Notes under the pieces: model-generated
Told to the model about the DNA's origin: nothing
The model's input: only the letters and a program-made list of their open reading frames with translations
Database searches by the model: none
Part shown: piece by piece, positions 11,723 through 29,377 of the stretch
Layout: every line of letters starts with the position of its first letter
Position numbering within the stretch: the first letter of the stretch is position 1
Virus record (IMG/VR): IMGVR_UViG_3300029286_000187
Span: 1-29,615 of that record
Source: a virus
DNA: 29,615 nucleotides
Reading direction: 5' to 3' (one strand)
Translations under genes and position numbers: made by a program

Positions 11723-11927
11723 TTTTTCCTATCTCAATCATTTTCTTCATTACTTCTTTCATATCTTTCTTAAGTTCTTTAAGCTCAGGCATATCGTTCA
11801 TTTCTAAATATTTCAAGCATTTTTCAATACATGTGTAGCTGGCTGAAGCATCTAACATTCTCATACTAGATTTTTGTTTCTTGTCTGAGCGAACTTTCTG
11901 TAAACTTACTATCTTATTCTCGGTCAT
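11715..11927 (-). CDS. Small helical hypothetical protein
   Basis: A 70-residue, lysine- and methionine-rich helical protein (MTENKIVSLQKVRSDKKQK; later LKYLEMNDMPELKELKKDM). Function unknown. The start is uncertain: ATG at 11927 overlaps the upstream gene by 14 bases, while ATG at 11948 would add seven residues; neither has a good ribosome-binding site, so coupling to the upstream gene is likely. It overlaps the next gene by eight bases. The heptad-like spacing of L, M and I in its second half fits a short coiled coil and perhaps an assembly-chaperone role, which is a guess. Confidence 0.5.
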   Translation of the reverse strand: MTENKIVSLQKVRSDKKQKSSMRMLDASASYTCIEKCLKYLEMNDMPELKELKKDMKEVMKKMIEIGKNG

Positions 11928-12414
11928 TAATAATTTCTGCAATAACATGGCAAATAGAGCTTGTTTCTTTAGTTCCCTTATTTGAAACAGGGTATACTCT
12001 ATCTAATTCAACACCGTCAACGCCAATAGAACCTTCAAAGTTCAATACTTCAGCACCACGTTTAGTAGCTACGAAATTAACTTTTTCATTTTTAGTTAAA
12101 GTGAATAATTCATATCCATTATCAACCAATTCTTGAGGTAGCTTTTTTGTATATTCTTTAACAATAGGTAGTAATTCAGATTCAGACTTAAACATAGCTG
12201 GTCTGAATTCGTTTTTAAACTGTTTATCAAGTTGGTGAGAAACTAATGCAACGTGAGAACCTGCTGCAAGAGGCTCTACGGTTTTCTTATTTTTAGACTT
12301 ACGCCCGACAGCACAGAAAAACCCGCCAATGGTCTTAATAACCTTAACGTCCTCTCCATGAAGCTCCCCAATAACCTTAATCGACTCAACCTCTTCAGGT
12401 TTGATATTATCCAT
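11914..12414 (-). CDS. Hypothetical protein of the structural operon
   Basis: A 166-residue globular protein without signal or membrane segment. Segments include KVIGELHGEDVKVIKTIGGF, FCAVGRKSKNKKTVEPLAAG, then SHVALVSHQLDKQFKNEFRP. A site M-F-K-S-E occurs at roughly residue 75. I do not recognise the family. It has a strong ribosome-binding site (AGGAG, 8 bases) and a YAATCTTWA element at 12432-12440, so it may head a transcript covering the small genes down to the palm-domain protein. The mixed alpha/beta composition would fit a tail or head accessory protein. Confidence 0.6.
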   Translation of the reverse strand: MDNIKPEEVESIKVIGELHGEDVKVIKTIGGFFCAVGRKSKNKKTVEPLAAGSHVALVSHQLDKQFKNEFRPAMFKSESELLPIVKEYTKKLPQELVDNGYELFTLTKNEKVNFVATKRGAEVLNFEGSIGVDGVELDRVYPVSNKGTKETSSICHVIAEIINDRE

Positions 12415-12446: not shown

Positions 12447-12746
12447 TTAAAGGTTTTCTAGGTCTTCTTCACTAAGCTCTGTTTCTGGAATTCCAAACGA
12501 CTGGTCTCCGAAATATCGTCTTGAATGGTCGTACTGGTCAGACACTCTCTCAGCTTTTTCAGTTTCGTATATAAGTATAAGTTGTTGAAATAACTCAATT
12601 TCTTTAGGTGTTAGATGTTCTTTAAGCTCTTCAAATTCAATCTGAAGCTTAATCAAATCTATAGCCAATTCATCCCAATCAAAAGTTTTTACAACTTTCT
12701 CGTATTCTTCCCTCTTGAAAGGCTTAATTGTTGGCGATTTTTTCAT
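12447..12746 (-). CDS. Small acidic helical hypothetical protein
   Basis: A 99-residue protein, mostly helical and charged: YEKVVKTFDWDELAIDLIKL, QIEFEELKEHLTPKEIELFQ, then an acidic C-terminus (ETELSEEDLENL). No family recognised. It overlaps the end of the lytic transglycosylase by 23 bases and has AAGGG eight bases before its ATG, so it is likely coupled to lysin translation. The location invites a lysis-related or chaperone role, but the sequence does not show it. Confidence 0.6.
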   Translation of the reverse strand: MKKSPTIKPFKREEYEKVVKTFDWDELAIDLIKLQIEFEELKEHLTPKEIELFQQLILIYETEKAERVSDQYDHSRRYFGDQSFGIPETELSEEDLENL

Positions 12747-13260
12747 TATAGCCCTTTTTTACATAAAATCTGTTTACTAACGATTTGTACTTATTTCTTA
12801 AGTGCTTGGTTTTCGAGTGATAGCAGCTCCATGCATCTTCTTTCAAGTACTTACAAGCTTTTTTCTTATCAGTAACAACTTTAAAATAACTTTCTACGGC
12901 ATAATCAATATTTTTAATCAGTTCTTTCTTATTAAATCCATATTCTTTAATAGTGCGAATATTTATCTGAAACATACCAACGTCAAAATGACTCCCATGC
13001 TTAGTAGTAGCTATATTTCTGTAGCCTGATTCCTGCATAGCTATTGCTGCGGCTCTATGAGGGTCAGCTTTATATATTTTAGCATATCTTTCAATTGAAC
13101 TAGCGAGTTTTTTGGCTAAATTCTTATCGATATCCGGCTTGTTCTTGATAATCTGTTCTAATACTTTACTCTTAACTGGCTTAACTCGTGGTGTTTTAAA
13201 ATCATAAGCGTTAAGCGTAGTTGCGGCTATTAAACTAATAAATAAAAATATTTGTTTCAT
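12724..13260 (-). CDS. Secreted lytic transglycosylase (SLT domain), probable endolysin or entry lysin
   Basis: A 178-residue protein. Residues 1-18 form a Sec-type signal peptide (MKQIFLFISLIAATTLNA), cleaved before YDF. The soluble lytic transglycosylase (goose-lysozyme-like) motifs follow: AAAIAMQESGY with catalytic E77, then DVGMFQIN (residues ~93-100). The enzyme would cleave the MurNAc-GlcNAc bond of peptidoglycan in the periplasm. The start at 13260 has a perfect GGGAGGG site; an in-frame upstream start at 13290 has none and would bury the signal. A sigma70-like promoter and a ribosome-binding-site-sequestering hairpin sit immediately upstream. A signal peptide on the lysin means export could use the host Sec system rather than a holin pore. 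Confidence 0.88.
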   Translation of the reverse strand: MKQIFLFISLIAATTLNAYDFKTPRVKPVKSKVLEQIIKNKPDIDKNLAKKLASSIERYAKIYKADPHRAAAIAMQESGYRNIATTKHGSHFDVGMFQINIRTIKEYGFNKKELIKNIDYAVESYFKVVTDKKKACKYLKEDAWSCYHSKTKHLRNKYKSLVNRFYVKKGYNEKIANN

Positions 13261-13308
13261 AAGCCCTCCCTTACTTGAATTATACCACAATAAGGAGGGC
13301 TTTTACAA
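13261..13308 (-). promoter_or_regulatory. Lysin promoter nested in a hairpin that masks the ribosome-binding site
   Basis: On the minus strand a -35 TTGTAA (13303-13308), 18-base spacer and extended -10 TGG-TATAAT (hexamer at 13279-13284) predict a start near 13272, 12 bases before the lysin ATG. Inverted arms at 13294-13302 and 13261-13269 (AAGCCCTCC / GGAGGGCTT, nine base pairs, 24-base loop) pair across this promoter. The 3' arm contains the ribosome-binding site GGAGGG. Read-through RNA would hold the masked site, whereas RNA started at this promoter lacks the 5' arm and stays open. Confidence 0.7.
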
Positions 13309-13322
13309 GCCTTAAACGTAAC

Positions 13323-16300
13323 CTATTGATTCTCCATACCAAATTTAACTTTAGTAGCCTTAATTCCATTTCTCCAAGCATGGTCTATCTTTTCATTATC
13401 TCCACCAAACTCTTGATTCAACTTAGAGTAGTGAGCCTCGCCAACTTCTTGACCCATTGTAGGGTGGCTTTGAACTAATTCAGATAAAGCCGGTTTACTC
13501 ATTTTAAGAGCGTATCCGTATTTATTCATCAAATCAGGACTTGACTTGATAGTTTCTTTCATAGCAATATGACTTGGCTTATAAGGATTGTGCTTAACAA
13601 AATTACGCTGCATAATTTGAGCTACGTCAGCGTCAGCTTGCGCTCTACCTGATTCCCTAGCTCTTTGAGCTGGGTCAATTGGTGCGGCTGCAACTTCTCT
13701 TGAGGCTGGCGTTTTAGCAGCTTCAACATTTTCTTGATTCATATAATGAGCGCCATGAGCTAAAGCTAAAGCTAGAGCCCCTGACTTGAGAGCCTTACCT
13801 TCCCATTTTTGAATTTCATCAGAAGATACTTTACGTTTCTTTTTAGACTTAAAAGGTTTTTGTAAAGAACCTTCTAATTGCTCAGGAACTACTGGACTAG
13901 AAGCTACTGAAGATTTCTTAATTTGAGGTTTATTAAAATCATTGGAATGAACTTTAAGTCCTTTGTAATTAAGGCTAGTGTCCTTACTATTATCAAAACC
14001 TACAGTATAGTGACCATCGCCATGAGATTGACGTACAGTTCCAACTCCGTGGGCTTTATGATTAACTCTGTCGCCAGTTTTGAAAGGCTTAGGAGCTTCG
14101 GCTTTATTGAAATCTTTGAATTTATCTAAAGCGGCATCAAGTGGTTTTTTAGCACCTGTTTTCTGCCTATCTTTTTCAGCGATGATTTTGCGCTTCTCTT
14201 GAGACTTCTTATCCTTATACCAATTACGAGGATGTTGACCGAATGGCTTAGATACGTCTTTTTCACTAGCTGCCATATCATCTAAATCTTCCTGAGGAAT
14301 ATTGGCTCTAGACTTACGCTGCTCAATTAATTGACGACGAATCTTACCAAATAAGCCTGAGTCTTTATGTGACTTAGCATTAATTAATGTGTTTGGATTA
14401 GCTTGTAATTCTTTCTCTCCAGTAAATGGGTCGAATCTATAAAAACCTTGGTCCAAGTCATTAAGAGTCTGTTTAGCATGTTCTCTAGCAAGCTCTTCTG
14501 AAGTTCCTTCCTTCCCACGTTTAGGAGTTCTGAAAGGTTCAATACCAGCTCTACGAGCAATACCACCCTCCATGTGCTGAGCTGTTTGCTCAGGCATACC
14601 GCCGCCATGCATTGGTTTTAATTCACCAGATGTCTGTGTTTGTTTTAACTTACCTAAAAACCCCGGCGCTCCAATACGATTTTGATATTCAGGTAAATTC
14701 ATCCCCGGAGGAGTAAGTAAGGCATGTCCAGCCTCGTGTAGAACTTGCTGGTCATGCGGGTCGCCTTGTCTATTAATAGTCAAAGATGTAGGGCTTTTAC
14801 TTCCTAAATCTCTTCCGCTTTCATCATCTTGTACGTCTGGAGTAAGTCCTAAAGATGTTAAATAATTGTGTAATCTATCTACTCTACCTTTGACGTTCTT
14901 ATCGTAGTCAAACCCTTCACTAGCTGTACGCTTAGCGTGGATAGGTTTAGTAAACTCACCTTTTTTAATCTTATTAAGGTTAGTTAGATGTAAGTGAGCT
15001 TCAGCAGCATGTTTTCTGTAGTTCTCATCAGGATGATTTTCTGAAGCATGTTTTAGATACTCAGCAATAGTATTAGGATTCCTCATTTTCATGATTCTGG
15101 CTGAATGTCTATAGTCAGGATGATGAATTTCAATAACGTGAGCGTCTGGGAAATGCTCAGGTAATTGCATACCTATTTTCTCAATAAGCTCTTCTGTTTT
15201 ACCATCTTGACCGTATGGCGATGTATGAACTAAAAGAGTCTTATTATCATCCATTAAACGAACTACAGGATAGTGAGCGCCATAAATATTGATAGAGCTA
15301 GGAATTTGACCTGTTTTTTGTGCCATTTTCGAGCGCTTCATTTTATCAGCGCTAGGCATACTGTAGATACGGCTATTCATTCCAGCCGTAGTCTGTTTAT
15401 CGGTAGCTAGATTAGATAAAGCCTCTCCGACCTTCTCTTCTTCTTGCTTTGCGCCTTTTGATTTTTTAGGCGCTTCGTCCATCTCTTCATCTTTTCTAAG
15501 TGAATTATTGATTTTTTCTGAGGCTGCAAGTTTTTCTTTTGGAGTCCAGCCAAATTGACCTTGGTGAGTATCTCTAGGTTTCATTTGTTTTAAATCTTTA
15601 GCTTTATAAGAAGACTTATCGCCAGACTTGCCTTGTTTTTGATTAATTTTAGCGTCAGCTTTGTGTGGTACTAAAGCGTCTAGGTTTGCATGATGAAAGC
15701 CATGTTTATCGTGTTCTACAATCCATTCTTTCTCTTCTCTTTCGGTAACTGAGCGGTCTTTGAATTTTGAGCCGTACTTACCTATAGATGCCTTTGTTGA
15801 GTTGAGTTGTTTCTGAAACTCACTTAAATTACCTTCGTCTTTAATATTACTAGGAGCGTTGAATTGATTAGGGTTATGGATAAGATTTGACTCTGGAATC
15901 CAAGCAGAAACTACTCCGCCGCCATAAGTAGCTCTATCGCCGTTTTCTTGACCAAAATTTTCAGCTACTTCTTTATCTGGAGTCCAACTAGTTCTTTCTC
16001 CTGCAATATGCACTGTTTTACCATTTTTATTAGTTCCAGCAAACTCTTCCTGACCCATACCTCTATGCATAAGGTATAGATTTTCACCAGTTTGAGGGTG
16101 TTTTCTAACATGAGTTTGACCTGCTAGTTTTCTTAAAGAACGAAATTTAGCAGTATCGTCCATCGGCTGTAAAGAATCTCTAGCTTCAGATTCTTCATCA
16201 TGAGTCCAAGCTCTTTGCTGTAATCTAGTTTTATCGTTTTCTGGAGCTTTAGGATTAAACTTATGTCTACGCTGTAAAGAACCTTTTTCAAGCTTTTCAT

Positions 16301-16388
16301 ATTCTTCTGACTTACCTAATATACCTAAGTTTTCAAGCTCTTCTAGATATTCTGATGTATTACGTCTGTGTTTTTTATGTAAAGACAT
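13323..16388 (-). CDS. Large multidomain protein: ADP-ribosyltransferase-like, HExxH metallopeptidase and Tudor-like domains
   Basis: A 1021-residue protein. Residues ~100-225 fit an R-S-E ADP-ribosyltransferase: LYLMHRG with R109, T133-S134-W135 in ERTSWTPDKEVAENFG, VVSAWIPESNLIH, and E219-K220-E221. Residues ~350-480 form another globular region (INIYGAHYPVVRLMDDNKTL; HVIEIHHPDYRHSARIM). HEAGH at 550-554 is a zinc-peptidase HExxH motif in QQVLHEAGHALLTPPG. Residues ~770-810 (GDRVNHKAHGVGTVRQ, then YTVGFDN) look like a Tudor/SH3-like DNA- or protein-binding module. Linkers hold L-R-K-D-E and F-N-K-A-E sites. A short hydrophobic stretch lies near 870. This architecture matches polyvalent proteins that phages inject to modify host targets. 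An accessory or internal virion role is inferred from position; no signal peptide is present. Confidence 0.7.
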   Translation of the reverse strand: MSLHKKHRRNTSEYLEELENLGILGKSEEYEKLEKGSLQRRHKFNPKAPENDKTRLQQRAWTHDEESEARDSLQPMDDTAKFRSLRKLAGQTHVRKHPQTGENLYLMHRGMGQEEFAGTNKNGKTVHIAGERTSWTPDKEVAENFGQENGDRATYGGGVVSAWIPESNLIHNPNQFNAPSNIKDEGNLSEFQKQLNSTKASIGKYGSKFKDRSVTEREEKEWIVEHDKHGFHHANLDALVPHKADAKINQKQGKSGDKSSYKAKDLKQMKPRDTHQGQFGWTPKEKLAASEKINNSLRKDEEMDEAPKKSKGAKQEEEKVGEALSNLATDKQTTAGMNSRIYSMPSADKMKRSKMAQKTGQIPSSINIYGAHYPVVRLMDDNKTLLVHTSPYGQDGKTEELIEKIGMQLPEHFPDAHVIEIHHPDYRHSARIMKMRNPNTIAEYLKHASENHPDENYRKHAAEAHLHLTNLNKIKKGEFTKPIHAKRTASEGFDYDKNVKGRVDRLHNYLTSLGLTPDVQDDESGRDLGSKSPTSLTINRQGDPHDQQVLHEAGHALLTPPGMNLPEYQNRIGAPGFLGKLKQTQTSGELKPMHGGGMPEQTAQHMEGGIARRAGIEPFRTPKRGKEGTSEELAREHAKQTLNDLDQGFYRFDPFTGEKELQANPNTLINAKSHKDSGLFGKIRRQLIEQRKSRANIPQEDLDDMAASEKDVSKPFGQHPRNWYKDKKSQEKRKIIAEKDRQKTGAKKPLDAALDKFKDFNKAEAPKPFKTGDRVNHKAHGVGTVRQSHGDGHYTVGFDNSKDTSLNYKGLKVHSNDFNKPQIKKSSVASSPVVPEQLEGSLQKPFKSKKKRKVSSDEIQKWEGKALKSGALALALAHGAHYMNQENVEAAKTPASREVAAAPIDPAQRARESGRAQADADVAQIMQRNFVKHNPYKPSHIAMKETIKSSPDLMNKYGYALKMSKPALSELVQSHPTMGQEVGEAHYSKLNQEFGGDNEKIDHAWRNGIKATKVKFGMENQ

Positions 16389-16444
16389 GTATAATCCTAT
16401 TAAATAGATTTTAATTCTTCTATATATTCGTCAGTGTTTTTTCT
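16335..16444 (-). repeat. Diverged duplication at the endonuclease / 1021-residue gene border
   Basis: The segment 16412-16444 encodes RKNTDEYIEEL at the endonuclease C-terminus, and 16335-16367 encodes RRNTSEYLEEL near the N-terminus of the next protein. Eight of eleven residues are identical, with many differences at third codon positions. Confidence 0.55.
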
Positions 16445-17302
16445 AAAGAAATCTTGTTTTTTGGTAGAAGGTACTTTCGGTAGTACACCTATAAAACTCA
16501 AAAAGATTCTGCTTTGCCAAATTTCTTGAGCTTCCCAACTATCTTCAGCTATATGTAAAACTTCAATCCCGATACTACTAAAAAAAGCATCCTTATCGGC
16601 GTGATAGTTACTAGCTTCCTCTATCGAAATGTTCTTATTTTTAGCCAATACACTTACTGAGTGCCAATAAGTACCATCGTACTCTATACCCTTATTAAGA
16701 CTTGGGATATAGATATCCAACTGATATCTGCTTTGCCTAAATCTCTTATCTTTATTAAAGAAATACCTCTGAATTGCATCGGGATGGTATCGCTGGACTT
16801 TGCTTAAGATAAATCTCTCTGCTGTTGATGAGTTAGTACTCCTTATCATATGTTGGCAAATATCATCTATCCAACCATTTTTAAGCGCCGCTAAATAAGA
16901 ACCCGCATCGTTAATACAAAATTCCCTTTTGGTCTTGTATTTTACAGCATCTTTAGCTGCGCTTTCTTTAGTGTGTTTTTGTATTTTTTTTACACAATGC
17001 ATATGTGAGCATACGCTGTCTAAGGAATCCTCGCCCATTAAAAGAGCCTGAGTGTAAGCTTGCTTATTACTTTTTTGGAAAACAGTTCTTGTTCTATATA
17101 GCCCTGCTATATCCTTGATTTCTTCGCTAGAATATTTTTTATAATTTTTCTGTTGCATATGAGAGCATATATCATCTAAAACACCCTGTCTGGAGGCTGA
17201 AAGATAGGCAGGATTGTCAAATTTTTGAAAATGACTTTTTTTAGTATACTTTGCAGCTACTTGCTTTAATTTATCTAAAGACCATTTTCTAGAACGGCTC
17301 AT
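16400..17302 (-). CDS. EDxHD (Vsr-like) homing endonuclease with three DNA-binding repeats
   Basis: A 300-residue protein. Residues 1-~150 contain three repeats of ~50 residues, each with 'K/R-x-x-F/V-x-x-x-x-x-x-A/S-Y' and ending in [IV]C-x-HM: LDDICSHM, LDSVCSHM and IDDICQHM. Residues ~155-285 form a nuclease core: QLDIYIPSLNKGIEYDGTYW, with E207, D209 and H213, followed by ADKDAFFSSIGIEVLHI and an EDSW element. This fits the Vsr-related EDxHD homing endonucleases exemplified by I-Bth0305I. The gene lies between the 251- and 1021-residue proteins, overlapping the former as ATGA. Its last 14 residues (RKNTDEYIEELKSI) resemble the N-terminus of the next protein, a likely trace of its insertion. 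Confidence 0.8.
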   Translation of the reverse strand: MSRSRKWSLDKLKQVAAKYTKKSHFQKFDNPAYLSASRQGVLDDICSHMQQKNYKKYSSEEIKDIAGLYRTRTVFQKSNKQAYTQALLMGEDSLDSVCSHMHCVKKIQKHTKESAAKDAVKYKTKREFCINDAGSYLAALKNGWIDDICQHMIRSTNSSTAERFILSKVQRYHPDAIQRYFFNKDKRFRQSRYQLDIYIPSLNKGIEYDGTYWHSVSVLAKNKNISIEEASNYHADKDAFFSSIGIEVLHIAEDSWEAQEIWQSRIFLSFIGVLPKVPSTKKQDFFRKNTDEYIEELKSI

Positions 17303-18054
17303 TTTTCACCATGCCATTTACTATTATAAACCCATTCAGGAACAAGTCCAGCTTTTTGTGGAGCGTAGATAGTATTTTTAGGATTTTTCTTATTATTCTC
17401 TGCATGAGGTCCGAAATTCACCCAAGAATTCTGCATAATTAACTCATTAGCGAGAGCTGGTTGAGCTGACTGGCTATACATTTTTTTGTGGGTCAAATAA
17501 GCCTGATGCTCTCCTGTAGGACCGAATCCTGATTTGCCACCCATATGATGACCATTTATGTCATGAACTTGCCTCAGTAGGTCATTAGCCATCATTTGCT
17601 CCCCATCATGAGAGTAAAACTCAGTAGGTTGCAATAAAGGGTGGTCTTTTGGATGCTCTCCCTCAGAGCCAAAACCCATAGAAGTGGGAAAGTAATACAA
17701 ATGCTTATTGTTTTCGATATCGTAATGCATTTCTTTAGAGTTTTTATACGGTTGAAAATCTGGGTCTGTTATCCTAGAAAATTTATAACCCTTACCTAAT
17801 AAATCCTTATATTGTTTTTTAGTTTCTTTGATTAGTGAATTATAAGCGTTTTTAACTTGAGGATGATTAGGCTCATGCTTCATTGTTTCATAGGCGTGAG
17901 CAATTCTCGCACCATGTTCTGGATTTAAAGAAACCTTAGGAACTACTGAAGATTTTTTATTAAGCATATCTGTATCAATAAAGCCTTTTTTAAGCTCTGA
18001 TTCTACAATATCCTCAATCTTACTGAGTAGTTCTAGATTTTCTTTAATACTCAT
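17299..18054 (-). CDS. Conserved phage domain protein with HDINGHH and NFGPH motifs
   Basis: A 251-residue protein. After ~45 variable residues it carries a highly conserved phage/mobile-element domain: ARIAHAYETMKHEPNHPQVK, LIKETKKQYKDLLGKGYKF, SMGFGSEGEHPKDHPLL, then MANDLLRQVHDINGHHMGGK, a GFGPTGEHQAYLTHKKMYS stretch, and NSWVNFGPHAENNK, ending in APQKAGLVPEWVYN. The same block occurs in large polyvalent proteins and as stand-alone proteins of jumbo phages. Its invariant H-D-x-x-G-H, G-E, Q-N-S-W and N-F-G-P-H suggest an enzyme active site, but I know of no established activity. The start at 18054 is preferred (GGGG seven bases upstream, stop and start joined as TAATATG); an ATG four codons earlier is weaker. 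It lies between two giant proteins of the same cassette. Confidence 0.75.
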   Translation of the reverse strand: MSIKENLELLSKIEDIVESELKKGFIDTDMLNKKSSVVPKVSLNPEHGARIAHAYETMKHEPNHPQVKNAYNSLIKETKKQYKDLLGKGYKFSRITDPDFQPYKNSKEMHYDIENNKHLYYFPTSMGFGSEGEHPKDHPLLQPTEFYSHDGEQMMANDLLRQVHDINGHHMGGKSGFGPTGEHQAYLTHKKMYSQSAQPALANELIMQNSWVNFGPHAENNKKNPKNTIYAPQKAGLVPEWVYNSKWHGEK

Positions 18055-18055
18055 A

Positions 18056-21000
18056 TTAAACCCCATACCCTAGGTACTTTCTTAAAACTTTAATTTTGTC
18101 TAATAGTTTATCAGTATCTTCATTTTTAGCAAGTGTATTTACAAAAAGAACTTCGACCTTCATTAGCGTATCAGCAACATCAATAAAATGCTTAATTAAT
18201 CTAGGGTTAAGTTCTAGAGTATGACCGCCAAGAGCCTTATCGCCTTCAATTGGTTTATTTAATAAATCATCATTTTTATGAGGTACGTGCTCGGCAGTAA
18301 GACCTGCATTATTAGCATCGCTTCTTAAGTGTTCTATATCTGTCAGGTTTTCTGCAACGTTAGGAATACTCATTCCATTATAACCATGGTCTGAGTCTAT
18401 CTGCTTAAGTTTTGCGCCGTGTTGTCCAAACAAGTCTTTATGATGTTGTGATAATTTCCTATGAGTGTCTGCCGCTGGATTAGTACCCAACTCACTAGCT
18501 ATTTTATCATGAATTAAATTCATTTGAGCATGATGGTCCATAGCCATCTTATGTTTTGTAGGGTCACTACCAGACGAGCCTTTCTTAACAAAAGTGCTTT
18601 TGCCAGTATCTGTTAATGGTAATGTATCGCCAGATACAGGCTTAAAACCCATAGATTTAGGAACTTTACCGTAACTATCATTATAAACACTATGAGTAGT
18701 GTCCGAACCGGTGTGAGCTGACTTAGACTCTGGAGAGTGAGTTGAGATTTTTTCTACGCCATGTTTCTTAGCTTCTTTAATAATGTGATTCAGTAAAGCT
18801 TCACGCCAGTTTTTATGGTAATCAGAAATCTTCTCGATATGACTAGCCTTATCTTCATGACCGTTACTCTTAAGATACTGAGTCATTGTCTTACCAAAGT
18901 CCGATTGAAGTTCATCAACTAGCCAGTGTTTCGGGTCTGACATATCTACACGAGACCAAGCAATCGTTCTATCTTTAGTAGGATGTCCAGAACGCTTAGA
19001 AGTTTCCATTACTTTATTGAAAGTTCTAAACATTTCAGGGTCTTCTTTGATAGGAGCTAAAGACTCATCCGTATGGTCTAAACGCATAATGGTCTCATCT
19101 TGACGATTAAGATTCTGCATTTTATTAGAATCCCATTTACCGTAACTTATTCCATACTTAGTCTTAGGTATCTGAGCTATTTTTTCATCTACTTCAGCTT
19201 CAGTTAATTTACCTTTACCGTCAAAAATTTTCTTCCACTTCTCTTTCTGGTTAGGGAATATTTTATGCATAGTTCCAACGTCAATAGAGCCACCGTTAGC
19301 TTTAGCGTGGTCTTTTACCATTTCATAAGCGTGTTGGTCTTCTCCATACTCATGCTCTCTAGAACGCTCTTTTATATACTTATCTAGAAATGGACCATTA
19401 GCTCCATCTCCAGTTTTATTAATCCTGTTCTCTTTTAATTGCTGATATTCTGGTAAATGGTCACGAATATGCTCAGGAACAAATCTATCATCATTATGAG
19501 AGTTAGCGTAAAGGTCTGGTAAAAGCTCTTCTTTGAAGTGTCTTTCTTTCCATTCTTTCTCACCTTCTGCACGAGAGTTATTATATCCTTCGCTATAGTA
19601 ATAATCATCTGAATGGTCTTCGTAATAATCATCAGGTAAGTCACCTGAATTATCCATGTGAGTACGCCACTCATTTACAGCGTCAGTATATCTGTCGTCA
19701 AAATCAGGGTGGTTATGAATAGTGTAGTCGTCATGATTAGCGTAATCTATCTGTAAAGGACCGCCAAATTCATCTAATTTATCATGAATATGGTCCATGT
19801 CGATAGTATCGGCTTTCTCATTATACGGAATACCAATTTCAGAAGGATGCTCCATCCCTGTATGTTCTTTAAAATCGTCTAAATTAATAAGATTATTTCT
19901 ATCGTATTCTTCAGCTAGTTTATTTAAAGCATCAAAGTCATTACGACCTTCATTTTGTTTAGATTTAGCGTTATCGCCTTTCCAATCGTGATTCTCTCTT
20001 AGATGCTCATCAACCCAATCCTCTCCGCCTCTATGGTCTGAAGGGTCTTTATCTTTCCAAGCATTGATATTGTTATCACGAAGATATTTATCCATAGAAT
20101 AGCTTTCGTTAGCCCAGTTATCTCCAGCTTCACGCATATCGTCTTCGTGCTCATTCCAATAATCTTCTTCTACATCATCGATATCAAAAACATCTTTTTT
20201 GTCTTTTTTAAATCTATTCTGTAATTGCTCGTCATCATAACCATGCTGCTCATGGTCTTGATTCCATTTACGGAACATTTCAACGCCATGTTTAGGGTCT
20301 ATATCTTGATTATGGTATAAATTATATTTTTCATCAAAAGAGCCGTGTCTTTTGATGTGGTCTGCTTGGTCATCAGAGATATGTTTAGAGGCAGCTAATT
20401 TACTAGCCATTCCTTGGTCGTAGCCTTCGCCGTGATTCCAATTATTCCAATTATGCTCACCTTCAAATTCAACCTCAGGAAGTTCATTATCTTGAAATGG
20501 AGTTAATCTATTACCTTCAGCATCAGTCTGCTCTCCACCTTCAATACCAAGATACTTATCTGCAAAAGCCTTTCTTTCAATTTCAGGTAATTTACCTAAT
20601 ACATGGTCAAACTGGTCTTGGGATGTTAAATCTTTATGTCTCTGAGATGGATGATTGAGAATAGCTCTAGCTTCAGCGGCTCCAAACTTCTGGTCACTAC
20701 CTTCAGGATTAGCCATCTCGGATTCAATATGATTTCTTAAATCTCTACCAGAAATTTTATCTATAGTCTTATCATCTTTAATAAGGCTGTTTTTAATATC
20801 ATCTGGTAACTTATCAAACATTCTAGCTACGGCTGCCGGATTCTTATCGTGTAGAAATCTAAAGTGTTTTTCTTCTAAATTATCATTTTGAGCAAGTCTA
20901 CCAAATACATCATTTGCCACTTCTTCGTCACTATCAGTCCTATGCCTAGTTGCTATAATACTATCTTTGCCTTTAGCAACATCTTCTAGTAGAGATTGAG

Positions 21001-21364
21001 GAACTTGTCCATGTCTGACTATAGCTTCTAAAGTATCTCTAGCGCCTTCATTTCCCTTAGCTTTCTTTTTTAAGGCTTGGAATATTTTCTCGTTATTTGC
21101 CTCAGTATTTTGACCGCTTTCTTGAATCATAGTTCTTATAGCTCTAGGATTTTCGTTTAAAAAGCCCGGATGTGTAGTTAGAGCATGAAAATACTCTTCT
21201 GGGGTGAAACCATGTTTTTGAGCGTGTCTTTGGATATTACTTGATGATTTATAACTACCGTCATCAGCTATTAATTGCTGATATTCATTTCTTAATCCAG
21301 AATTACTCTGCTCTTCTTGAGGTAACTCTGAATCTGGGAATAGTGGAAGTTTAGTTTTTTTCAT
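18056..21364 (-). CDS. Giant phage protein: helical repeats, acidic/aromatic centre, conserved VDELQSD domain
   Basis: A 1102-residue protein. Residues ~35-290 are alpha-helical and repeat-like (TLEAIVRHGQVPQSLLEDV; later NPAAVARMFDKLPDDIKNSL), as in HEAT- or LRV-like arrays. Residues ~300-620 are rich in D, H, N, W and Y (NWNNWNHGEGYD; later DDYYEDHSDDYYYSEGYN), probably disordered or repeat-like. From ~790 a conserved module begins: RTIAWSRVDMSDPKHWLVDE, with LQSDFG at ~817-822, then WREALLNHIIKEAKKHGVEK and ISTHSPESK. A 'V-[DE]-E-[LI]-Q-S-D' block followed by a long helix and a THTPE-like strand is found in large phage and mobile-element polyvalent proteins, activity unassigned. The C-terminus carries L-A-K-N-E and a basic helix. 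A packaged or injected internal protein is inferred. Confidence 0.6.
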   Translation of the reverse strand: MKKTKLPLFPDSELPQEEQSNSGLRNEYQQLIADDGSYKSSSNIQRHAQKHGFTPEEYFHALTTHPGFLNENPRAIRTMIQESGQNTEANNEKIFQALKKKAKGNEGARDTLEAIVRHGQVPQSLLEDVAKGKDSIIATRHRTDSDEEVANDVFGRLAQNDNLEEKHFRFLHDKNPAAVARMFDKLPDDIKNSLIKDDKTIDKISGRDLRNHIESEMANPEGSDQKFGAAEARAILNHPSQRHKDLTSQDQFDHVLGKLPEIERKAFADKYLGIEGGEQTDAEGNRLTPFQDNELPEVEFEGEHNWNNWNHGEGYDQGMASKLAASKHISDDQADHIKRHGSFDEKYNLYHNQDIDPKHGVEMFRKWNQDHEQHGYDDEQLQNRFKKDKKDVFDIDDVEEDYWNEHEDDMREAGDNWANESYSMDKYLRDNNINAWKDKDPSDHRGGEDWVDEHLRENHDWKGDNAKSKQNEGRNDFDALNKLAEEYDRNNLINLDDFKEHTGMEHPSEIGIPYNEKADTIDMDHIHDKLDEFGGPLQIDYANHDDYTIHNHPDFDDRYTDAVNEWRTHMDNSGDLPDDYYEDHSDDYYYSEGYNNSRAEGEKEWKERHFKEELLPDLYANSHNDDRFVPEHIRDHLPEYQQLKENRINKTGDGANGPFLDKYIKERSREHEYGEDQHAYEMVKDHAKANGGSIDVGTMHKIFPNQKEKWKKIFDGKGKLTEAEVDEKIAQIPKTKYGISYGKWDSNKMQNLNRQDETIMRLDHTDESLAPIKEDPEMFRTFNKVMETSKRSGHPTKDRTIAWSRVDMSDPKHWLVDELQSDFGKTMTQYLKSNGHEDKASHIEKISDYHKNWREALLNHIIKEAKKHGVEKISTHSPESKSAHTGSDTTHSVYNDSYGKVPKSMGFKPVSGDTLPLTDTGKSTFVKKGSSGSDPTKHKMAMDHHAQMNLIHDKIASELGTNPAADTHRKLSQHHKDLFGQHGAKLKQIDSDHGYNGMSIPNVAENLTDIEHLRSDANNAGLTAEHVPHKNDDLLNKPIEGDKALGGHTLELNPRLIKHFIDVADTLMKVEVLFVNTLAKNEDTDKLLDKIKVLRKYLGYGV

Positions 21365-21365
21365 A

Positions 21366-22550
21366 TTATTTGACCTTAAATGATTCTTTCAAATTATGTA
21401 AAAACTCAGGATTGTGATGACCGTAAACATTAGCGTGGGATTGGGCGTTAGACATTGATTTTTGCTCATCATGATGATTCTTTGAACTAGCTTCGTCATA
21501 ATCTTTAGGGTGCATCTCGTGTTCTTCGTTTACATCGGTTGGATGAAACATACCGACAACCATACCCATAGTATCTTTATCTAATCCGCTATTGTAAATA
21601 CCGTGATATCCAGCGTCTTTAATAGCTTGGTGGAAATCATCTTTATCTACTACGCCGGGATTGATTTGTCTTTGGTCAGCAAGGGCTTTAGCCTTACTCC
21701 ACAACTTATCTTTATCTTTAGCGATATCGTATATTTTTCTATTACCTAGATTAGTTACGTATTTAGATTTACTACCTGAAGTCACCAAACTCTCAGGCTT
21801 AGCACCTTCAGCATAGAAAAAAGCTAATTTGTGAGTTGGAGCGCCTTGCTTAGCTTCAGAGCCAATCTTACGAACACCATGAAATTTAGGCTCAATAGAT
21901 TTAAGACCTTGCTCAGGAGAGTAATGGATAAGATTTAAGTTAGGGCTAGGGTTGTCTAAAGGATGTTCTGAATCGTCTTCATTCTTACAAAGGTAGAAAG
22001 AACTACCCTCAGATTTTTGCATTTTCTTAGGAGGTTTAACAAACTTAGATTGAGTATGTAAATCATCGCCCATAAGATGGGTGAAGTGAGTACCGTCTTC
22101 TAGAGTTGAATAGAAATCCTCGGGCTCTTGATTATGGATAGTAGTTCCTTGACCCTTCTGATGCTTTCCAGCTTTGTCGCCGTTAACATAGTGAAGCTCG
22201 TGATTATATCCATCACCGCTTATAATAATACTCTCCTGACCTAACTTGCGAGCTAATTCATAAAAATGTTTATTGGCGTGTTTAGGAGGATTTTTTATCA
22301 ATAATGACCTTTCTAAGCCACCATACTTACCTTTCATATCTTCAATATCATATCCCTTACCCTCAAGCAATGCTTTAACGTCCTCATGACTTAAAGATGT
22401 TTCGGTAGGATATAATGGATTTTCAGCAGATATTATTATATGAGACTGTCTAAAAGGATAGTCCTTAGATGAAATATTTTTTTTAATATCTTCTAGATAC
22501 TTTTCCTTATTTGTATTTTTCTGAATTGTTTTTAAGGTTTTTTTATACAT
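21366..22550 (-). CDS. Two-domain phage protein: DUF3293-like N-terminus and ADP-ribosyltransferase-like C-terminus
   Basis: A 394-residue protein. Residues ~30-150 resemble the small DUF3293-type phage domain: SHIIISAENPLYPTETSLS, KGKYGGLERSLLIKNP, and ELARKLGQESIIISGDG. The linker (170-200) holds two hydrophobic-x-K-[SN]-E sites, M-Q-K-S-E and L-C-K-N-E. Residues ~203-345 form a second domain: LNLIHYSPEQGLKSIEP, HKLAFFYAEGAKPESLV, NRKIYDIAKDKDKL, and FHQAIKDAGYHGIYNSGL. The H-Y-S start, a central FFY strand and a late 'AGYHGIYN' element recall H-Y-E-type ADP-ribosyltransferase-like folds; the catalytic call is tentative. The C-terminus is H/N-rich. It overlaps the GIY-YIG gene by eight bases and starts the cassette of large proteins. 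Confidence 0.55.
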   Translation of the reverse strand: MYKKTLKTIQKNTNKEKYLEDIKKNISSKDYPFRQSHIIISAENPLYPTETSLSHEDVKALLEGKGYDIEDMKGKYGGLERSLLIKNPPKHANKHFYELARKLGQESIIISGDGYNHELHYVNGDKAGKHQKGQGTTIHNQEPEDFYSTLEDGTHFTHLMGDDLHTQSKFVKPPKKMQKSEGSSFYLCKNEDDSEHPLDNPSPNLNLIHYSPEQGLKSIEPKFHGVRKIGSEAKQGAPTHKLAFFYAEGAKPESLVTSGSKSKYVTNLGNRKIYDIAKDKDKLWSKAKALADQRQINPGVVDKDDFHQAIKDAGYHGIYNSGLDKDTMGMVVGMFHPTDVNEEHEMHPKDYDEASSKNHHDEQKSMSNAQSHANVYGHHNPEFLHNLKESFKVK

Positions 22551-23409
22551 AATTAAACTTATACTTATATTTTACTAAATTTGTTCTATTATGGAGATTG
22601 TCGGTTATAGATTGAGGAGAACATTTAAACTCTTCGGCAGCGGAATTTATAGAACTAAATATTTTATTTGTAGATAGCTCAATTACTTTCTTGCGAAAAG
22701 TAGGTTTTTCTATAATTACCTTATTTGATATTTTGCCGTCCCAATCGGTAAGTTTTATAAACTTTCTGCCTTTGCAACTATTAGAAACTCCTCTTAAATT
22801 TTCATTTATAGAAACGATAGAAATGTTTAATTTATTACTTAAATCATACTTATCTAAATAAACTATTCCTGTAGTTGTATCTACGATAGGGTTTGTTTTC
22901 TTAGTTTTAGGAAGTATAATACCATCCCAATTACATAAAAAATCAAACTTTCTATTTTTACAGAAAGAAGTTCTTCTGTTTATATTATTCATTAATACTT
23001 CACGACTGATGCTGAATTTCTTACATACTACTTCTGGGTTTTTATAAATATCTCCAGTTGTTGTATCTACAATACTTTTCTCTTTAATTTCCTGACGATT
23101 TTTCTTATACTCACGACTAAGAGTTTTATTATTACCTCCATGCGATAGATTATATCCATCAGGAGATAGAGTATTGAATTTATAGATATAATAAGTTTCT
23201 AAATAATTTAATTCAGTTAATGAATTAGCTCCATCAATTTCTTCTATTTTAAAGTTTTGTTTTCCGTACTTTTGAATAGCTTTAGAGATAGCACTAACTC
23301 TCTCTCTACTAGGTTTACAATGACAATTCCATCTTGTTTTTATACTTTGGATAGTCTGACCTACGTAGACTTTATTATTGATTAAATTAGTTACCTTATA
23401 TATGAACAT
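22543..23409 (-). CDS. GIY-YIG homing endonuclease with three NUMOD/IENR repeats
   Basis: A 288-residue protein. The nuclease domain (residues 1-~95) has FIYKVTNLINNKVYVGQT, the conserved R-W within KTRWNCHC, and the catalytic-type glutamate in LNYLETYYIYK, followed by DGYNLSHGGNN. Three repeats follow, beginning IVDTTTGDIY, IVDTTTGIVY and VIELSTNKIF, each with a helix-turn-helix-like half and a 'C-K-x-R-K-F' or 'K-Y-K-F' ending (NUMOD1/IENR1 type); these would read the target DNA. There is no ribosome-binding site before the ATG, but an extended -10 promoter lies five bases upstream, so the mRNA may be leaderless. The gene separates the adaptor from the 394-residue protein. It is larger than the relative at 5957-6526 but shares the N-terminal pattern. 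Confidence 0.92.
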   Translation of the reverse strand: MFIYKVTNLINNKVYVGQTIQSIKTRWNCHCKPSRERVSAISKAIQKYGKQNFKIEEIDGANSLTELNYLETYYIYKFNTLSPDGYNLSHGGNNKTLSREYKKNRQEIKEKSIVDTTTGDIYKNPEVVCKKFSISREVLMNNINRRTSFCKNRKFDFLCNWDGIILPKTKKTNPIVDTTTGIVYLDKYDLSNKLNISIVSINENLRGVSNSCKGRKFIKLTDWDGKISNKVIIEKPTFRKKVIELSTNKIFSSINSAAEEFKCSPQSITDNLHNRTNLVKYKYKFNYV

Positions 23410-23446: not shown

Positions 23447-24265
23447 TTATATGTTGCTTAAATGATATTTTGTAAAATAAACTTTTTTAAGCTGTTGAAG
23501 GATTTTTTCACGTTGTTCTGAAAGTTGAGCTATTCTAGGCTCGTATATTTTAGTTCCAGCACTTGCTGATGATTGGCTTATGCCGTCCTGCGAGAGAGAC
23601 TGACTGTTATAGATATTATTAGTACCTAAGTTACCTAAAATATTAATAGCCGCTGTCATACCTATAATTGAGTTAAACAACACAGGAACATGACCTTCTT
23701 TATGACATACACCGGTCGTATATTCGATTTCCCAAAAAGCCGCAAGCCATGGAAGATTCGTTTGACCCTGTAAGAAAATCAAAGCGCCGCTTGGTACTCC
23801 GTTAACAACAGTACCTGAACTTCCAAATACCGAAAGAATAGGAAGTACGTTAATTTGACCTTTATGAAAGAAGCCTGATTCAACCCATTCTAAAGGTAGT
23901 CTATAAATCTCTTGACGATTCGTAGACATAACTTTAATTGACTCAACGCTTAGGATAGGTTTATGATTTACCTTGATATGAATAAAGCTCTTATATAGCT
24001 GAGAATCATAAGGAATACGTTCTTGCATCTGAACTTTATCTATATGCAATCCAGTCATAATTTCCATCTCTTGGATAGCTACTACAATCTGGTCTTTAAG
24101 CTCATCGCTATTGTAACTAGTCATATCGATACCATGTAAGTACCTAGATAATAGTAGTTCAGGAGTGATAATCGGCTCAATTCTCTGATTTAAATTAGAT
24201 ACTTCTTTAGCGTCTGCCGGGAGAGCTTTAGTTCCGTAACTTTTACTCTTGCTATAATCAGCCAT
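23447..24265 (-). CDS. Probable head-tail adaptor (connector) protein
   Basis: A 272-residue protein. Residues ~25-110 follow the pattern of head-tail adaptors that dock below the portal: ITPELLLSRYLHGIDMTSYN, ELKDQIVVAIQEMEIMTGLH, then ERIPYDSQLYKSFIHIKVNH and KPILSVESIKV. Later segments (LPLEWVESGFFHKGQINVLP; LPWLAAFWEIEYTTG) are typical of the longer versions in large myophages. The C-terminus is a helix after a serine-rich linker. The start at 24265 is chosen since GGTGGG lies eight bases upstream and the preceding stop joins as TAATATG; a GTG four codons earlier is possible. Lying a few genes after the major capsid protein, it would bridge portal and tail. No catalytic features. Confidence 0.6.
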   Translation of the reverse strand: MADYSKSKSYGTKALPADAKEVSNLNQRIEPIITPELLLSRYLHGIDMTSYNSDELKDQIVVAIQEMEIMTGLHIDKVQMQERIPYDSQLYKSFIHIKVNHKPILSVESIKVMSTNRQEIYRLPLEWVESGFFHKGQINVLPILSVFGSSGTVVNGVPSGALIFLQGQTNLPWLAAFWEIEYTTGVCHKEGHVPVLFNSIIGMTAAINILGNLGTNNIYNSQSLSQDGISQSSASAGTKIYEPRIAQLSEQREKILQQLKKVYFTKYHLSNI

Positions 24266-24266
24266 A

Positions 24267-24695
24267 TTAACACCCACCGATTTCTAAGAATTCAACAGTA
24301 ATTGCGTTCTTAACTACGAAGCTTCTTACTACTCCGTCTTCAGTAACATTAACTTTAATAGCTCCGCTATTAGGTACTTGAGCTGCGCTTAAAGTAAATT
24401 TCCAGATACTTTTATCGTCAGCGAACGGTTGAGTTCCTACTATATTAAAAGCAGCCGCATCGTCAATTGATTGAAAATCAACAGAAGCCGATAAAGCTGT
24501 AGCTTGCGATATATAACGCATAGGCATTTGTGGAAATGCTGGAGATTTTTCAGCATCTACCGCCGTACTTACATCTAAGTCAATTAATTGTAAATAAAGC
24601 GTATTTGGTTGACCTTCAGCCATAAACGCTTGAGCTGCGTTCTGCCAAGAATTTACATTATTTACGTTTTTTAATACTTTTGCACTAAGTCTCAT
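24267..24695 (-). CDS. Virion-type protein downstream of the capsid gene
   Basis: A 142-residue protein of unknown function. It begins MRLSAKVLKNVNNVNSWQNA and continues with beta-rich sequence (TLYLQLIDLDVSTA, then RYISQATALSASVDFQSID, KSIWKFTLSAAQVPNSGAIK) to a strand-rich end, VVKNAITVEFLEIGG. The hydrophobic/polar alternation with few charges is typical of small virion proteins such as head decoration, stopper or fibre-associated subunits. It comes right before the adaptor and joins it as TAATATG, so the two are likely co-translated. AGAGG lies four bases before the ATG. A YAATCTTWA element sits at 24725-24733. Confidence 0.65.
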   Translation of the reverse strand: MRLSAKVLKNVNNVNSWQNAAQAFMAEGQPNTLYLQLIDLDVSTAVDAEKSPAFPQMPMRYISQATALSASVDFQSIDDAAAFNIVGTQPFADDKSIWKFTLSAAQVPNSGAIKVNVTEDGVVRSFVVKNAITVEFLEIGGC

Positions 24696-27355: not shown

Positions 27356-28738
27356 TTAACCTTGTTGTCCAGAAATATTCTCGAACAATACGTTCTTACG
27401 TGGCTGCTTAACAGCTAGACACAAGAAACGAAAGTGAGCTTCAGGTAAGCTAAGGTCAGAGATAGCAAGCTTCATGCGGCTATAAGCAGCAAGTTGGTAG
27501 AACGAAGCTGTATTTGACTGAAGCAAGTAACCTGTAACTGAACCCGGCTCTCTGTTTCCAAGGTCTGTGAACACAGAAGTAGCAGCGCCAGAATCTTTAA
27601 CTTTACCGATGAACTTAGCAGAAGCAGCGCTTCCACCAACAGCAGAACGGTATACGTTATAGTGACGAGCACCTTGAACTTGAGAGATAGTTAGAACAGC
27701 AGCATCACCAGCAGCAACTGGAACGATTTGAGCAGCAGAAGCCAAAGACTCGCCTCTTTCGTTAGCAGAAGTTACATAGTAAGCATAAGAACCGGCATCC
27801 AACATTGAATCAGCGTTAACCGGAGAAGTTGGAGCGAAAGACGGAGCCGCTGGAGAACCAGCACGAGCACGAGCTGGACGAGTCTTACCAGAAAGGAAAC
27901 GAGAAGCTTCCATAGAAATCACAGATGAACTAGTCCATTGTGTTCTAAGGTGAGCGCCAGTTGCCTCTTGAGCAGAACCAGCAAGCATAATTCTTTCTTT
28001 AGCGTGTGCAATCTTGTTGTACTGAGCTAGAGAAATAGGGTCAAGGATAAGTTTATCAGCTTCACCGTGGTTCATTGCTGAACGAACTGCACCATCTTCA
28101 ATCAAAGACTGAGTAAGAGTACCGTTTACAGAAAGAATAACTGATTGGTCAGAACCGTACTCAGCAAACATCAAATCTTGAGTGTTTGAAAGAGCATCAG
28201 ACATACGAATCTGAACGTCTAGACCTTGCATAGCTGGCATGTTAGAGATAGCTAGTGGATTTCCGTCAAAAACACCTGCGTTAGAGAAATCTGATTGACC
28301 ACGGAAAGAGTCAAACTCGATATCAGCAGAAAGTTTCATAGCAGCATCGTTAGCAGCTCTATCTTCAGCTTTCGTACCGTCAAAAGCAGCTACCATGTTA
28401 GCAGCAACTGATACACGACGAGTAGTTGAGTAATAAGCCATAGGCACGATAGCACGAACGAAGTTAGAAGTATCTTCTTCTCCGATTCCGCCTTCATACT
28501 GAGCTGAACCACCAAAAATACCGTAGTCAAGCTGACGGTTATATTGGATAAGTGTTGACTTAGCGTCTTTTGAGCTAAGCATTTTTTGAAGCTTGATGTG
28601 CTTGTCTTCAAAAGTTACAAGTTCCATTACAGGAGAAAGGTCTTCTACCTGCAAAGCACTACCTTGTGTCAAAGTACTTGGTGCTGCGTTGTAACTACCA
28701 GCTTCCAAAGCCTTCATTAGGTCATTAAATTGTTCCAT
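27356..28738 (-). CDS. Major capsid protein with fibronectin-III-like insertion
   Basis: A 460-residue protein. The N-terminal arm and core show features of HK97-fold capsid proteins of large phages: LQVEDLSPVMELVTFEDKHI, STLIQYNRQLDYGIFGGSAQ, and a long E-loop and P-domain region; the C-terminal half returns with YQLAAYSRMKLAISDLSLPE and ends ENISGQQG. Residues ~290-395 are an inserted domain (GSYAYYVTSANERGESLAS, GARHYNVYRSAVGGSAAS, then SVFTDLGN) with the strand pattern of a fibronectin type III/Ig-like fold, which would project on the capsid surface. It is preceded by a scaffold-like gene and a strong ribosome-binding site (AGGAGG) and followed by a bidirectional terminator. Hundreds of copies would form the head shell. 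Confidence 0.85.
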   Translation of the reverse strand: MEQFNDLMKALEAGSYNAAPSTLTQGSALQVEDLSPVMELVTFEDKHIKLQKMLSSKDAKSTLIQYNRQLDYGIFGGSAQYEGGIGEEDTSNFVRAIVPMAYYSTTRRVSVAANMVAAFDGTKAEDRAANDAAMKLSADIEFDSFRGQSDFSNAGVFDGNPLAISNMPAMQGLDVQIRMSDALSNTQDLMFAEYGSDQSVILSVNGTLTQSLIEDGAVRSAMNHGEADKLILDPISLAQYNKIAHAKERIMLAGSAQEATGAHLRTQWTSSSVISMEASRFLSGKTRPARARAGSPAAPSFAPTSPVNADSMLDAGSYAYYVTSANERGESLASAAQIVPVAAGDAAVLTISQVQGARHYNVYRSAVGGSAASAKFIGKVKDSGAATSVFTDLGNREPGSVTGYLLQSNTASFYQLAAYSRMKLAISDLSLPEAHFRFLCLAVKQPRKNVLFENISGQQG

Positions 28739-28747
28739 GTTGTCCTC

Positions 28748-29377
28748 CTATAATAGATGTTTTACTAATTCGATTGAACCGTTATCGTAGTATTTATTAA
28801 TTGCGTCTTTATCTTTTTTCTCAAGCTTACCGCTTCTGATTTTAGCTGTTAGCTTAGAGCTAATTTCGCTCTTAGTTACTTTACTCAAATCAACTTCGTT
28901 AATCTTGTTATCTTCTTCAGACTTCTTAATTACTTCCATATTAACGATAGCTTTTTGTTTTGGAGCTTGCGAGCCCTTACCAAAAGCCTTATTCAATACC
29001 TCAGTAACCTTATCTAGAGATTTCTTAAGAGTCTCATTTTCAGACTTCAAAGTTTCATTTTCAGACTTCATCATTTTAGCTTCTTCAGAAACTTCAGATT
29101 TAGTCATTACTTCTTCAACGCCGATTGTCTTCTTAAGAGTCTCAAAATGAGCCTTGGCTTCAGCCTTACTCATAGAGCGATACAAACCTTCCATTTCAGC
29201 CATATCTTCAGCATCGTAATCAAGTTCTTTAGTCTCTTTAGATTCTGATTTAGCTTCCACGGCAGTTTCTGTCTTCTTAATTTGTTCACCTTCTGCTGTA
29301 GGGTCTAAGTGTTTTTTAAACTCAACTTCTACTTCAGCAATAAGGTTAAGCAAATCTTGTTCAGTATATTTTTTCAT
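28748..29377 (-). CDS. Scaffold-like (assembly core) protein
   Basis: A 209-residue, highly charged, helical protein right before the major capsid gene, the standard place of the scaffold. Residues ~95-135 are a coiled coil with a perfect heptad duplication (MKSENETLKSENETLKKSLD). It carries several hydrophobic-x-K-[SA]-E sites: M-S-K-A-E, M-T-K-S-E, M-M-K-S-E, I-K-K-S-E and V-T-K-S-E. In phages with a prohead protease, scaffold proteins are cut at many such sites before DNA packaging, so these are good candidates. The basic C-terminus (KLTAKIRSGKLEKKDK) would contact the shell, as in other scaffolds. The start has GGGAG eight bases upstream. The assignment is by position and composition. Confidence 0.65.
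   Translation of the reverse strand: MKKYTEQDLLNLIAEVEVEFKKHLDPTAEGEQIKKTETAVEAKSESKETKELDYDAEDMAEMEGLYRSMSKAEAKAHFETLKKTIGVEEVMTKSEVSEEAKMMKSENETLKSENETLKKSLDKVTEVLNKAFGKGSQAPKQKAIVNMEVIKKSEEDNKINEVDLSKVTKSEISSKLTAKIRSGKLEKKDKDAINKYYDNGSIELVKHLL
29030..29071 (-). repeat. 21-bp tandem duplication (heptad repeat)
   Basis: Two adjacent 21-base units (29030-29050 and 29051-29071) identical at 19 positions encode two copies of a 7-residue coiled-coil heptad, K-S-E-N-E-T-L, in the scaffold-like protein. Confidence 0.8.

Follow-up and report, generated by a model that had tools for sequence, protein, structure and literature searches.

Phage polyvalent proteins (Iyer et al. 2017, PMC5512222) carry several unrelated enzyme domains on one polypeptide and are encoded among late structural genes, and it has been proposed that they are processed by their own built-in zincins (PMC5512222). 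T4 Alt is packaged in the head and ejected (PMC5512222). The Dar proteins of P1 (DarA, DdrB and others) are anti-restriction proteins that are likewise packaged in the head, and DarA is cleaved by the P1 head protease (PMC12810830, PMC5512222); several head proteins of giant phages, for example those of SPN3US, are trimmed by the head protease (PMC10052503). Here, we describe a cassette of five minus-strand genes at positions 13323-22550 of the IMG/VR virus record IMGVR_UViG_3300029286_000187, the whole 29,615-nucleotide stretch of which is referred to as the window; it belongs to a large tailed-phage genome and carries the late genes of a myovirus. The cassette encodes the proteins PV394, PV1102, PV255 and PV1021 together with a homing endonuclease. 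The cassette is probably a cargo slot of modular make-up, from which polyvalent effectors would be delivered in the virion after being cut by the head maturation protease. Also favoured, with somewhat less assurance, is the wider proposal that the lineage encodes virion polyproteins of anti-defence enzymes, including an S-adenosylmethionine (SAM) lyase, that would be cut by the protease in the head, their domains being swapped, split, fused and even appended to the protease while the delivered products stay unchanged. What is new here is the motif in the cargo linkers and the SAM-lyase prediction.

Comparison with known systems

The cassette resembles the published polyvalent proteins in its late virion-gene neighbourhood and in carrying several unrelated enzyme domains per protein: PV394 and PV1021 each contain at least two unrelated domains of disparate predicted activity, and fused homologues reach 1314-2135 aa. 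The kinds of domain are also alike, namely ADP-ribosyltransferase (ART)-like, lysozyme-like and putative metallopeptidase domains, with LPD and ART-PolyVal domains in relatives of the window. The cassette differs in its lineage-specific sites resembling head-protease substrates, in its fluid number of open reading frames (ORFs) and in its SAM-lyase-like domain; the terms SAMase, SAM hydrolase, S-adenosyl and AdoMet are absent from PMC5512222. T4 Alt and SPN3US provide effectors packaged in the head, as is predicted for the cassette, but the known cuts in SPN3US mostly remove propeptides and fall C-terminal to Glu at P1, whereas those predicted here fall after K, between many domains, and would free each enzyme. 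No homology to the P1 Dar proteins was found, and P1 has separate proteins rather than a multi-site polyprotein. Among isolates, Myxococcus phage Mx1 is the nearest; its capsid protein is 56% identical and its late genes follow the same order. Mx1 shares the slot and the motif, and its slot holds a polyvalent protein with GNAT, ART-PolyVal, NUDIX and lytic-transglycosylase-type (SLT-type) domains, the last identified by profile; however, its cargo differs and its SAM-lyase-like domain lies in another gene (WNM70344) beside the tail sheath.

A motif in the cargo linkers

The observations on which this account draws are of sequence and comprise slot synteny, domain content, motif statistics and their lineage specificity, the SAM-lyase signature, and ORF fission and fusion. 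The motif [LMIVF]-x-K-[SA]-E was found 55 times in the cargo against 6.6 expected, an enrichment of about 8-fold, and K[SAG]E was found 272 times in the putative scaffold against 13.3 expected (about 20-fold, over 46 partly redundant loci), whereas control proteins showed no enrichment (7 against 6.6); the expected counts come from shuffles, and the related sequences are not independent. Outside domain cores, five other orders of the same letters occur 2-9 times each, compared with 52 for the motif, and 49 of 52 sites lie outside domain cores even though the cores fill 45% of the residues (p about 4e-10). In the 1667-aa protein of L061 the sites bracket the domains one by one. The enrichment is confined to the head region of the sampled Mx1 genome (14 against 1.5 expected; 7 against 6.6 in the rest) and is seen again in later-fetched proteins of related phages (16 against 1.8), compared with 16 against 20.9 expected for the HDINGHH domain of PV255 in unrelated phages.

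The same pattern is present in the proteins of the head itself. The putative scaffold (28748..29377 (-)), identified by its position before the major capsid gene, has five [LMIVF]xK[SA]E sites. The major capsid protein (27356..28738 (-), PHROG 752) is of the SPO1 type, its relatives are encoded on 42 viral contigs, and the capsid proteins of relatives start with a conserved L-x-K-A-L-E. The capsid protein of phage 812 has 463 aa in 5lii and 439 aa in 9row, where it starts at S25 after VVK24, and this VVK/S point (a slash marks a deduced or predicted cut) aligns with LMK/ALEAG of the N-terminal window capsid sequence in the same pattern. Given that the cargo motif matches the VVK/S start of the mature phage 812 capsid chain, we infer that the head maturation protease would cut the cargo polyproteins into separate effectors. 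Predicted sites in the window are K179/S180-E between the two domains of PV394 (22008..22016 (-)), in a linker of low predicted local distance difference test (pLDDT) score at residues 174-194, K26/S27-E after the N-terminal leader of PV1021 (16305..16313 (-)), and K762/A763-E between the zincin and Tudor-like parts of PV1021 (14097..14105 (-)).

Several points weigh against cleavage by the head protease. The cleavage register is deduced from the ends of the deposited phage 812 chains, and a capsid cleavage site of SPO1-like phages was not found in the open literature. The motif also occurs in some neck or other structural ORFs of the window (4222-4674, 7773-9512, 9522-10394 and 11914-12414), and is therefore no proof of a location inside the head. 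The canonical K[SA]E site is absent from PV1102 and PV255, one KGE site (K476) falls inside the putative zincin, and sites are not significantly more frequent near N-termini (p 0.06).

It is possible, though unlikely, that the cargo is packaged and ejected but that K[SA]E serves as a tag for scaffold binding or prohead targeting, with any processing carried out by the cargo's own zincin. The motif is indeed densest in the putative scaffold, zincin processing has been published (PMC5512222) and PV1021 has a zincin-like HExxH. Nevertheless, the sites bracket individual domains, as in the L061 protein, the same pattern surrounds the apparent processing point of the phage 812 capsid protein, and the zincin domain occurs in only 3 genomes compared with most for the motif. 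The published proposal for how giant multidomain effectors are readied for passage through the tail is self-processing by built-in metallopeptidases; a short lineage-specific motif at domain borders, common to the scaffold and the capsid protein, points instead to the head protease. In uncultured phages of the lineage, this motif could help to predict which effectors are delivered by the virion.

Less likely again is the explanation that these proteins are made late but are not packaged, serving superinfection exclusion, host takeover or lysis. A place in the late operon alone is no proof of packaging; however, a head-assembly-specific motif is common to the cargo, scaffold and capsid protein, packaging in the head has precedents in T4 Alt and the P1 Dar proteins, and in two relatives (L059:5772-8171 and L036:1656-3887, minus strand) ORFs with a match to the Mx1 head maturation protease carry the PV255 domain as a fusion. 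Other members of this Mx1-head-protease-like family match the PHROG head maturation protease. Within the 1239-aa Mx1 head protease itself (L002; Mx1 13002-16721), residues 234-285, which follow the protease part, are a near copy of the capsid N-terminus (FAKAMEAGNFNAAPSTL), and the protein has a long extra C-terminal part.

Variation of the slot among relatives

As judged from gene order, the cassette occupies a hypervariable slot, which lies within the late operon in a lineage of SPO1-like myoviruses. The slot is bounded by a neck-like gene (23447-24277) and the gene at 11914-12414, and is kept from Mx1 to metagenomic relatives, synteny that bears out the late-operon placement given in the initial annotation. 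Between these limits the relatives have one to several ORFs of very different content, with ART-PolyVal, LPD1, NUDIX, GNAT and SLT domains all present at the same position. The presence of canonical polyvalent domains in the slot of relatives supports the polyvalent reading; as for the earlier view that these effectors are carried in the head, the cleavage-like motif speaks for it and packaging itself is predicted.

The only constant part of the slot is the SLT-type domain, which was found in 26/26 complete slots, often degenerate (PF01464 was matched by 10/60 slot proteins), while the other cargo is swapped. This constancy could indicate that the slot is mainly structural, forming a conduit for ejection or in the neck that bears a murein hydrolase, with the enzyme-like modules of secondary importance. 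Such a role is very unlikely for two reasons: some relatives manage with minimal slots of 214-276 aa, which marks the large modules as dispensable cargo, and the SAM-lyase-like and ART-like modules have kept their catalytic residues.

The cassette was initially described as four genes of 394, 1102, 251 and 1021 residues, and their split was thought unusual. These ORFs exist (251 residues correspond to the second ATG of PV255 and 255 to the first), but the endonuclease at 16400-17302 had been missed and there are five genes. Nor is the split unusual: contig G003 encodes a single protein of 1,951 aa that corresponds to PV1102, PV255 and part 300-695 of PV1021, and in contig G009 a single 1,667-aa protein holds most modules. 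Since slots of relatives vary from fused to several ORFs, splitting and fusing is the rule in this lineage, and the number of ORFs is probably nearly neutral: with cleavage of the polyproteins predicted in either case, one giant ORF would be nearly equivalent to several small ones. The ORFs of the cassette join by overlaps of 4-11 bases or gaps of 11 bases, which leaves no room for an intron or intein as the cause of the split; a +1 frameshift between PV1102 and PV255 (at GTTTAA) was considered, and reinitiation is simpler. Least probable of all is that the homing endonuclease broke up one giant gene, of which the split genes would be the decaying remains. In favour of this reading, the joint at which the endonuclease lies is fused in G003, and the window copy of the SLT-type domain is degenerate. 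Against it, every ORF is intact, the arrangement of PV255 and endonuclease recurs in L063, L072 and L097, and the ORF that was split off possesses a start, a leader and a predicted site of its own.

A leader of the form MYKKxLxxIK is common to the first slot ORF in the window, L005, L062-L070 and L086, with different domains following it, and is possibly a head-targeting signal.

Proposed mechanism

The mechanism suggested for the cargo slot is inferred as regards packaging, cleavage, ejection and each enzyme activity. The cargo proteins would be synthesised late and enter the prohead, where their linkers would be cut at [hydrophobic]-x-K/[SA]-E by the protease that also processes the capsid protein and degrades the scaffold. 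Once released, the enzymes would be ejected together with the DNA: the SAM lyase would starve SAM-dependent restriction, the R-S-E ADP-ribosyltransferase would modify host targets, the SLT-type domain would open the cell wall, and the putative metallopeptidase and the uncharacterised domains would be delivered alongside. Homing endonucleases at the joints may help the modules to split and move.

PV394: a predicted SAM lyase and an H-Y-S domain

PV394 (394 aa; 21366..22550 (-)) combines an N-terminal SAM-lyase-like domain with a C-terminal H-Y-S domain, possibly an ART. Residues 32-165 (22056..22457 (-)) had been called DUF3293-like, a label that can be traced to the weak match of the Mx1 homologue to DUF3293; judged by homologues, fold model and active-site residues, the domain is better described as a predicted SAM (S-AdoMet) lyase. 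The homologue in L063 matches PF23780 above the curated cut-off (4.4e-9, 36.8 bits vs 28), and four more homologues match below it. The model of the domain, with pLDDT 80-90, has as its top Foldseek match 7ock_K, the SAMase chain of a MAT-SAMase complex (prob 1.00, E 5.5e-3), and the viral matches of this type include annotated SAM hydrolases. The active-site residues of Svi3-3 are G56, Y58, E69, Q104 and E105 (PMC7877911), which correspond to G74, Y76, E80, Q105 and E106 of PV394 and are largely conserved across 16 phages. The domain is thus like the described phage SAM lyases, T3 SAMase and Svi3-3 (PMC7877911, PMC8406200), in its PII-like fold match and its G-x-Y, E and Q-E residues. Two results count against this assignment: PV394 of the window itself does not match PF23780, and comparing the SAM-lyase-like alignment with T3 SAMase alone by hhalign gave nothing significant.

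Taken together, sequence and model suggest that one enzyme of the cassette probably destroys the S-adenosylmethionine of the host. After infection, T3 SAMase is the earliest protein to be made, whereas the cassette domain is predicted to arrive ready-made in the virion, apparently the first case of a SAM lyase predicted as virion cargo. A pre-packed SAM lyase, if true, would act before phage gene expression, when restriction threatens the incoming DNA; whether T3 SAMase protects against restriction is disputed. In NC_003298 (L094) the gene at the T3 SAMase position (901-1359) is labelled 'SAM-dependent methyltransferase', which is probably a misannotation.

The H-Y-S domain (residues 203-350; 21501..21944 (-)) is aligned with H and Y in columns that do not vary, and is possibly an ADP-ribosyltransferase of the H-Y type. 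The initial class assignment is plausible but unconfirmed: no Pfam or PDB-sequence match and no clear fold match was obtained for this domain, and hhalign against the Mx1 ART-PolyVal region was not significant. When PDB sequences were searched with profiles of the ART, SLT, PV255, SAM-lyase-like and H-Y-S domains, nothing useful was returned, no Pfam match above cut-off was found for the four cassette proteins reported earlier, and tblastn of PV1102 and PV1021 against named phages gave no match.

PV1021: ART-like, putative zincin, Tudor-like and SLT-type parts

PV1021 (1021 aa; 13323..16388 (-)) contains an R-S-E ART-like domain, a putative zincin with HEAGH, a Tudor-like stretch, a hydrophobic segment and an SLT-type C-terminal domain. 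The ART-like domain (residues 31-290; 15519..16298 (-)) shows the R-S-E order of motifs (R, S-T-S-like, E-x-E), with R109, S134 and E219-x-E221. The R109, TSW 133-135 and EKE 219-221 reported initially are present, and their equivalents are conserved in most of 13 aligned ART copies from relatives, so that by motif the ART reading is a good one. No Pfam or PDB-sequence match was found for this domain. Structure prediction by domain, suggested along with the initial annotation, yielded the 7ock_K match for the SAM-lyase-like domain; for the ART-like domain it gave ART-superfamily neighbours, TreTu and Tpt1, with prob 0.77 and 0.80 and E above 0.2, which is not significant. A 2,135-aa protein of L063 (343-6750 (-)) has four to five tandem copies of the R-S-E ART, most of which begin with a KGSLQR-type site.

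The evidence for the putative zincin (residues 301-700; 14289..15488 (-)) is its HExxH motif, present in 3/3 sequences of the domain as HEAGH in the window and as HEGAH and HEAAH in its only two homologues. The motif on which the metallopeptidase had been proposed is thus confirmed, but the fold model, built on these 3 sequences, is of low confidence. The Tudor-like module survives as a Tudor/CarD-like stretch whose Pfam matches are sub-threshold. The C-terminal SLT/lysozyme-like domain (residues 881-1021; 13326..13748 (-)), overlooked in the first domain inventory, has a degenerate active site in the window copy. A separate SLT transglycosylase gene (12724..13290 (-); PF01464, 4.5e-8), the product of which starts with a hydrophobic signal-peptide-like segment, may replace it.

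PV1102, PV255 and nuclease genes at the joints

PV1102 (1102 aa; 18056..21364 (-)) has a conserved helical N-terminal region, an acidic middle and, at residues 641-1060, a DELQSD domain (18185..19444 (-)) conserved in 6 homologues; the protein has no Pfam match. PV255 (17299..18066 (-)) contains the HDINGHH/NFGPH domain (17311-17940 (-), PHROG 3170). The VDELQSD, HDINGHH and NFGPH motifs are all present as initially noted and lie in conserved domains. The HDINGHH domain is widespread in phage polyvalent proteins, occurring on at least 579 viral contigs, and in 79 contigs examined the median length of the protein that carries it is 1,260 aa. It is also found in mycobacteriophages, as a hypothetical protein (gene 97 of Mycobacterium phage Pinkcreek (L091), and others).

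The homing endonuclease of the cassette (300 aa; 16400..17302 (-); PHROG 3339, 2.9e-19) lies between PV255 and PV1021; in L063, L072 and L097, as in the window, the PV255 domain is immediately followed by an endonuclease of this family. A GIY-YIG homing endonuclease (22543..23409 (-); PF01541, 4.6e-8; PHROG 314, 3e-24) borders the cassette on its upstream side. Nuclease genes have been reported to mark the limits of exchange between phages (PMC10448857), and the endonuclease at the PV255 joint and the GIY-YIG gene at the cassette edge fit this pattern. The C-terminus of the 300-aa endonuclease (RKNTDEYIEELKSI) resembles the N-terminal leader of PV1021, the next ORF (RRNTSEYLEELENL); a similar likeness occurs in L063, and the resemblance is possibly the trace of an insertion or duplication.

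Elsewhere in the window, the tail sheath is encoded at 1709-3862. A relative of the window phage (L095, contig DBCB01000051.1) is binned into a Planctomycetaceae metagenome assembly, a weak hint of the host at best. Further nuclease genes of the window, at 5957-6526 and 24738-25283, are a second GIY-YIG homing endonuclease and an endonuclease VII-like gene.

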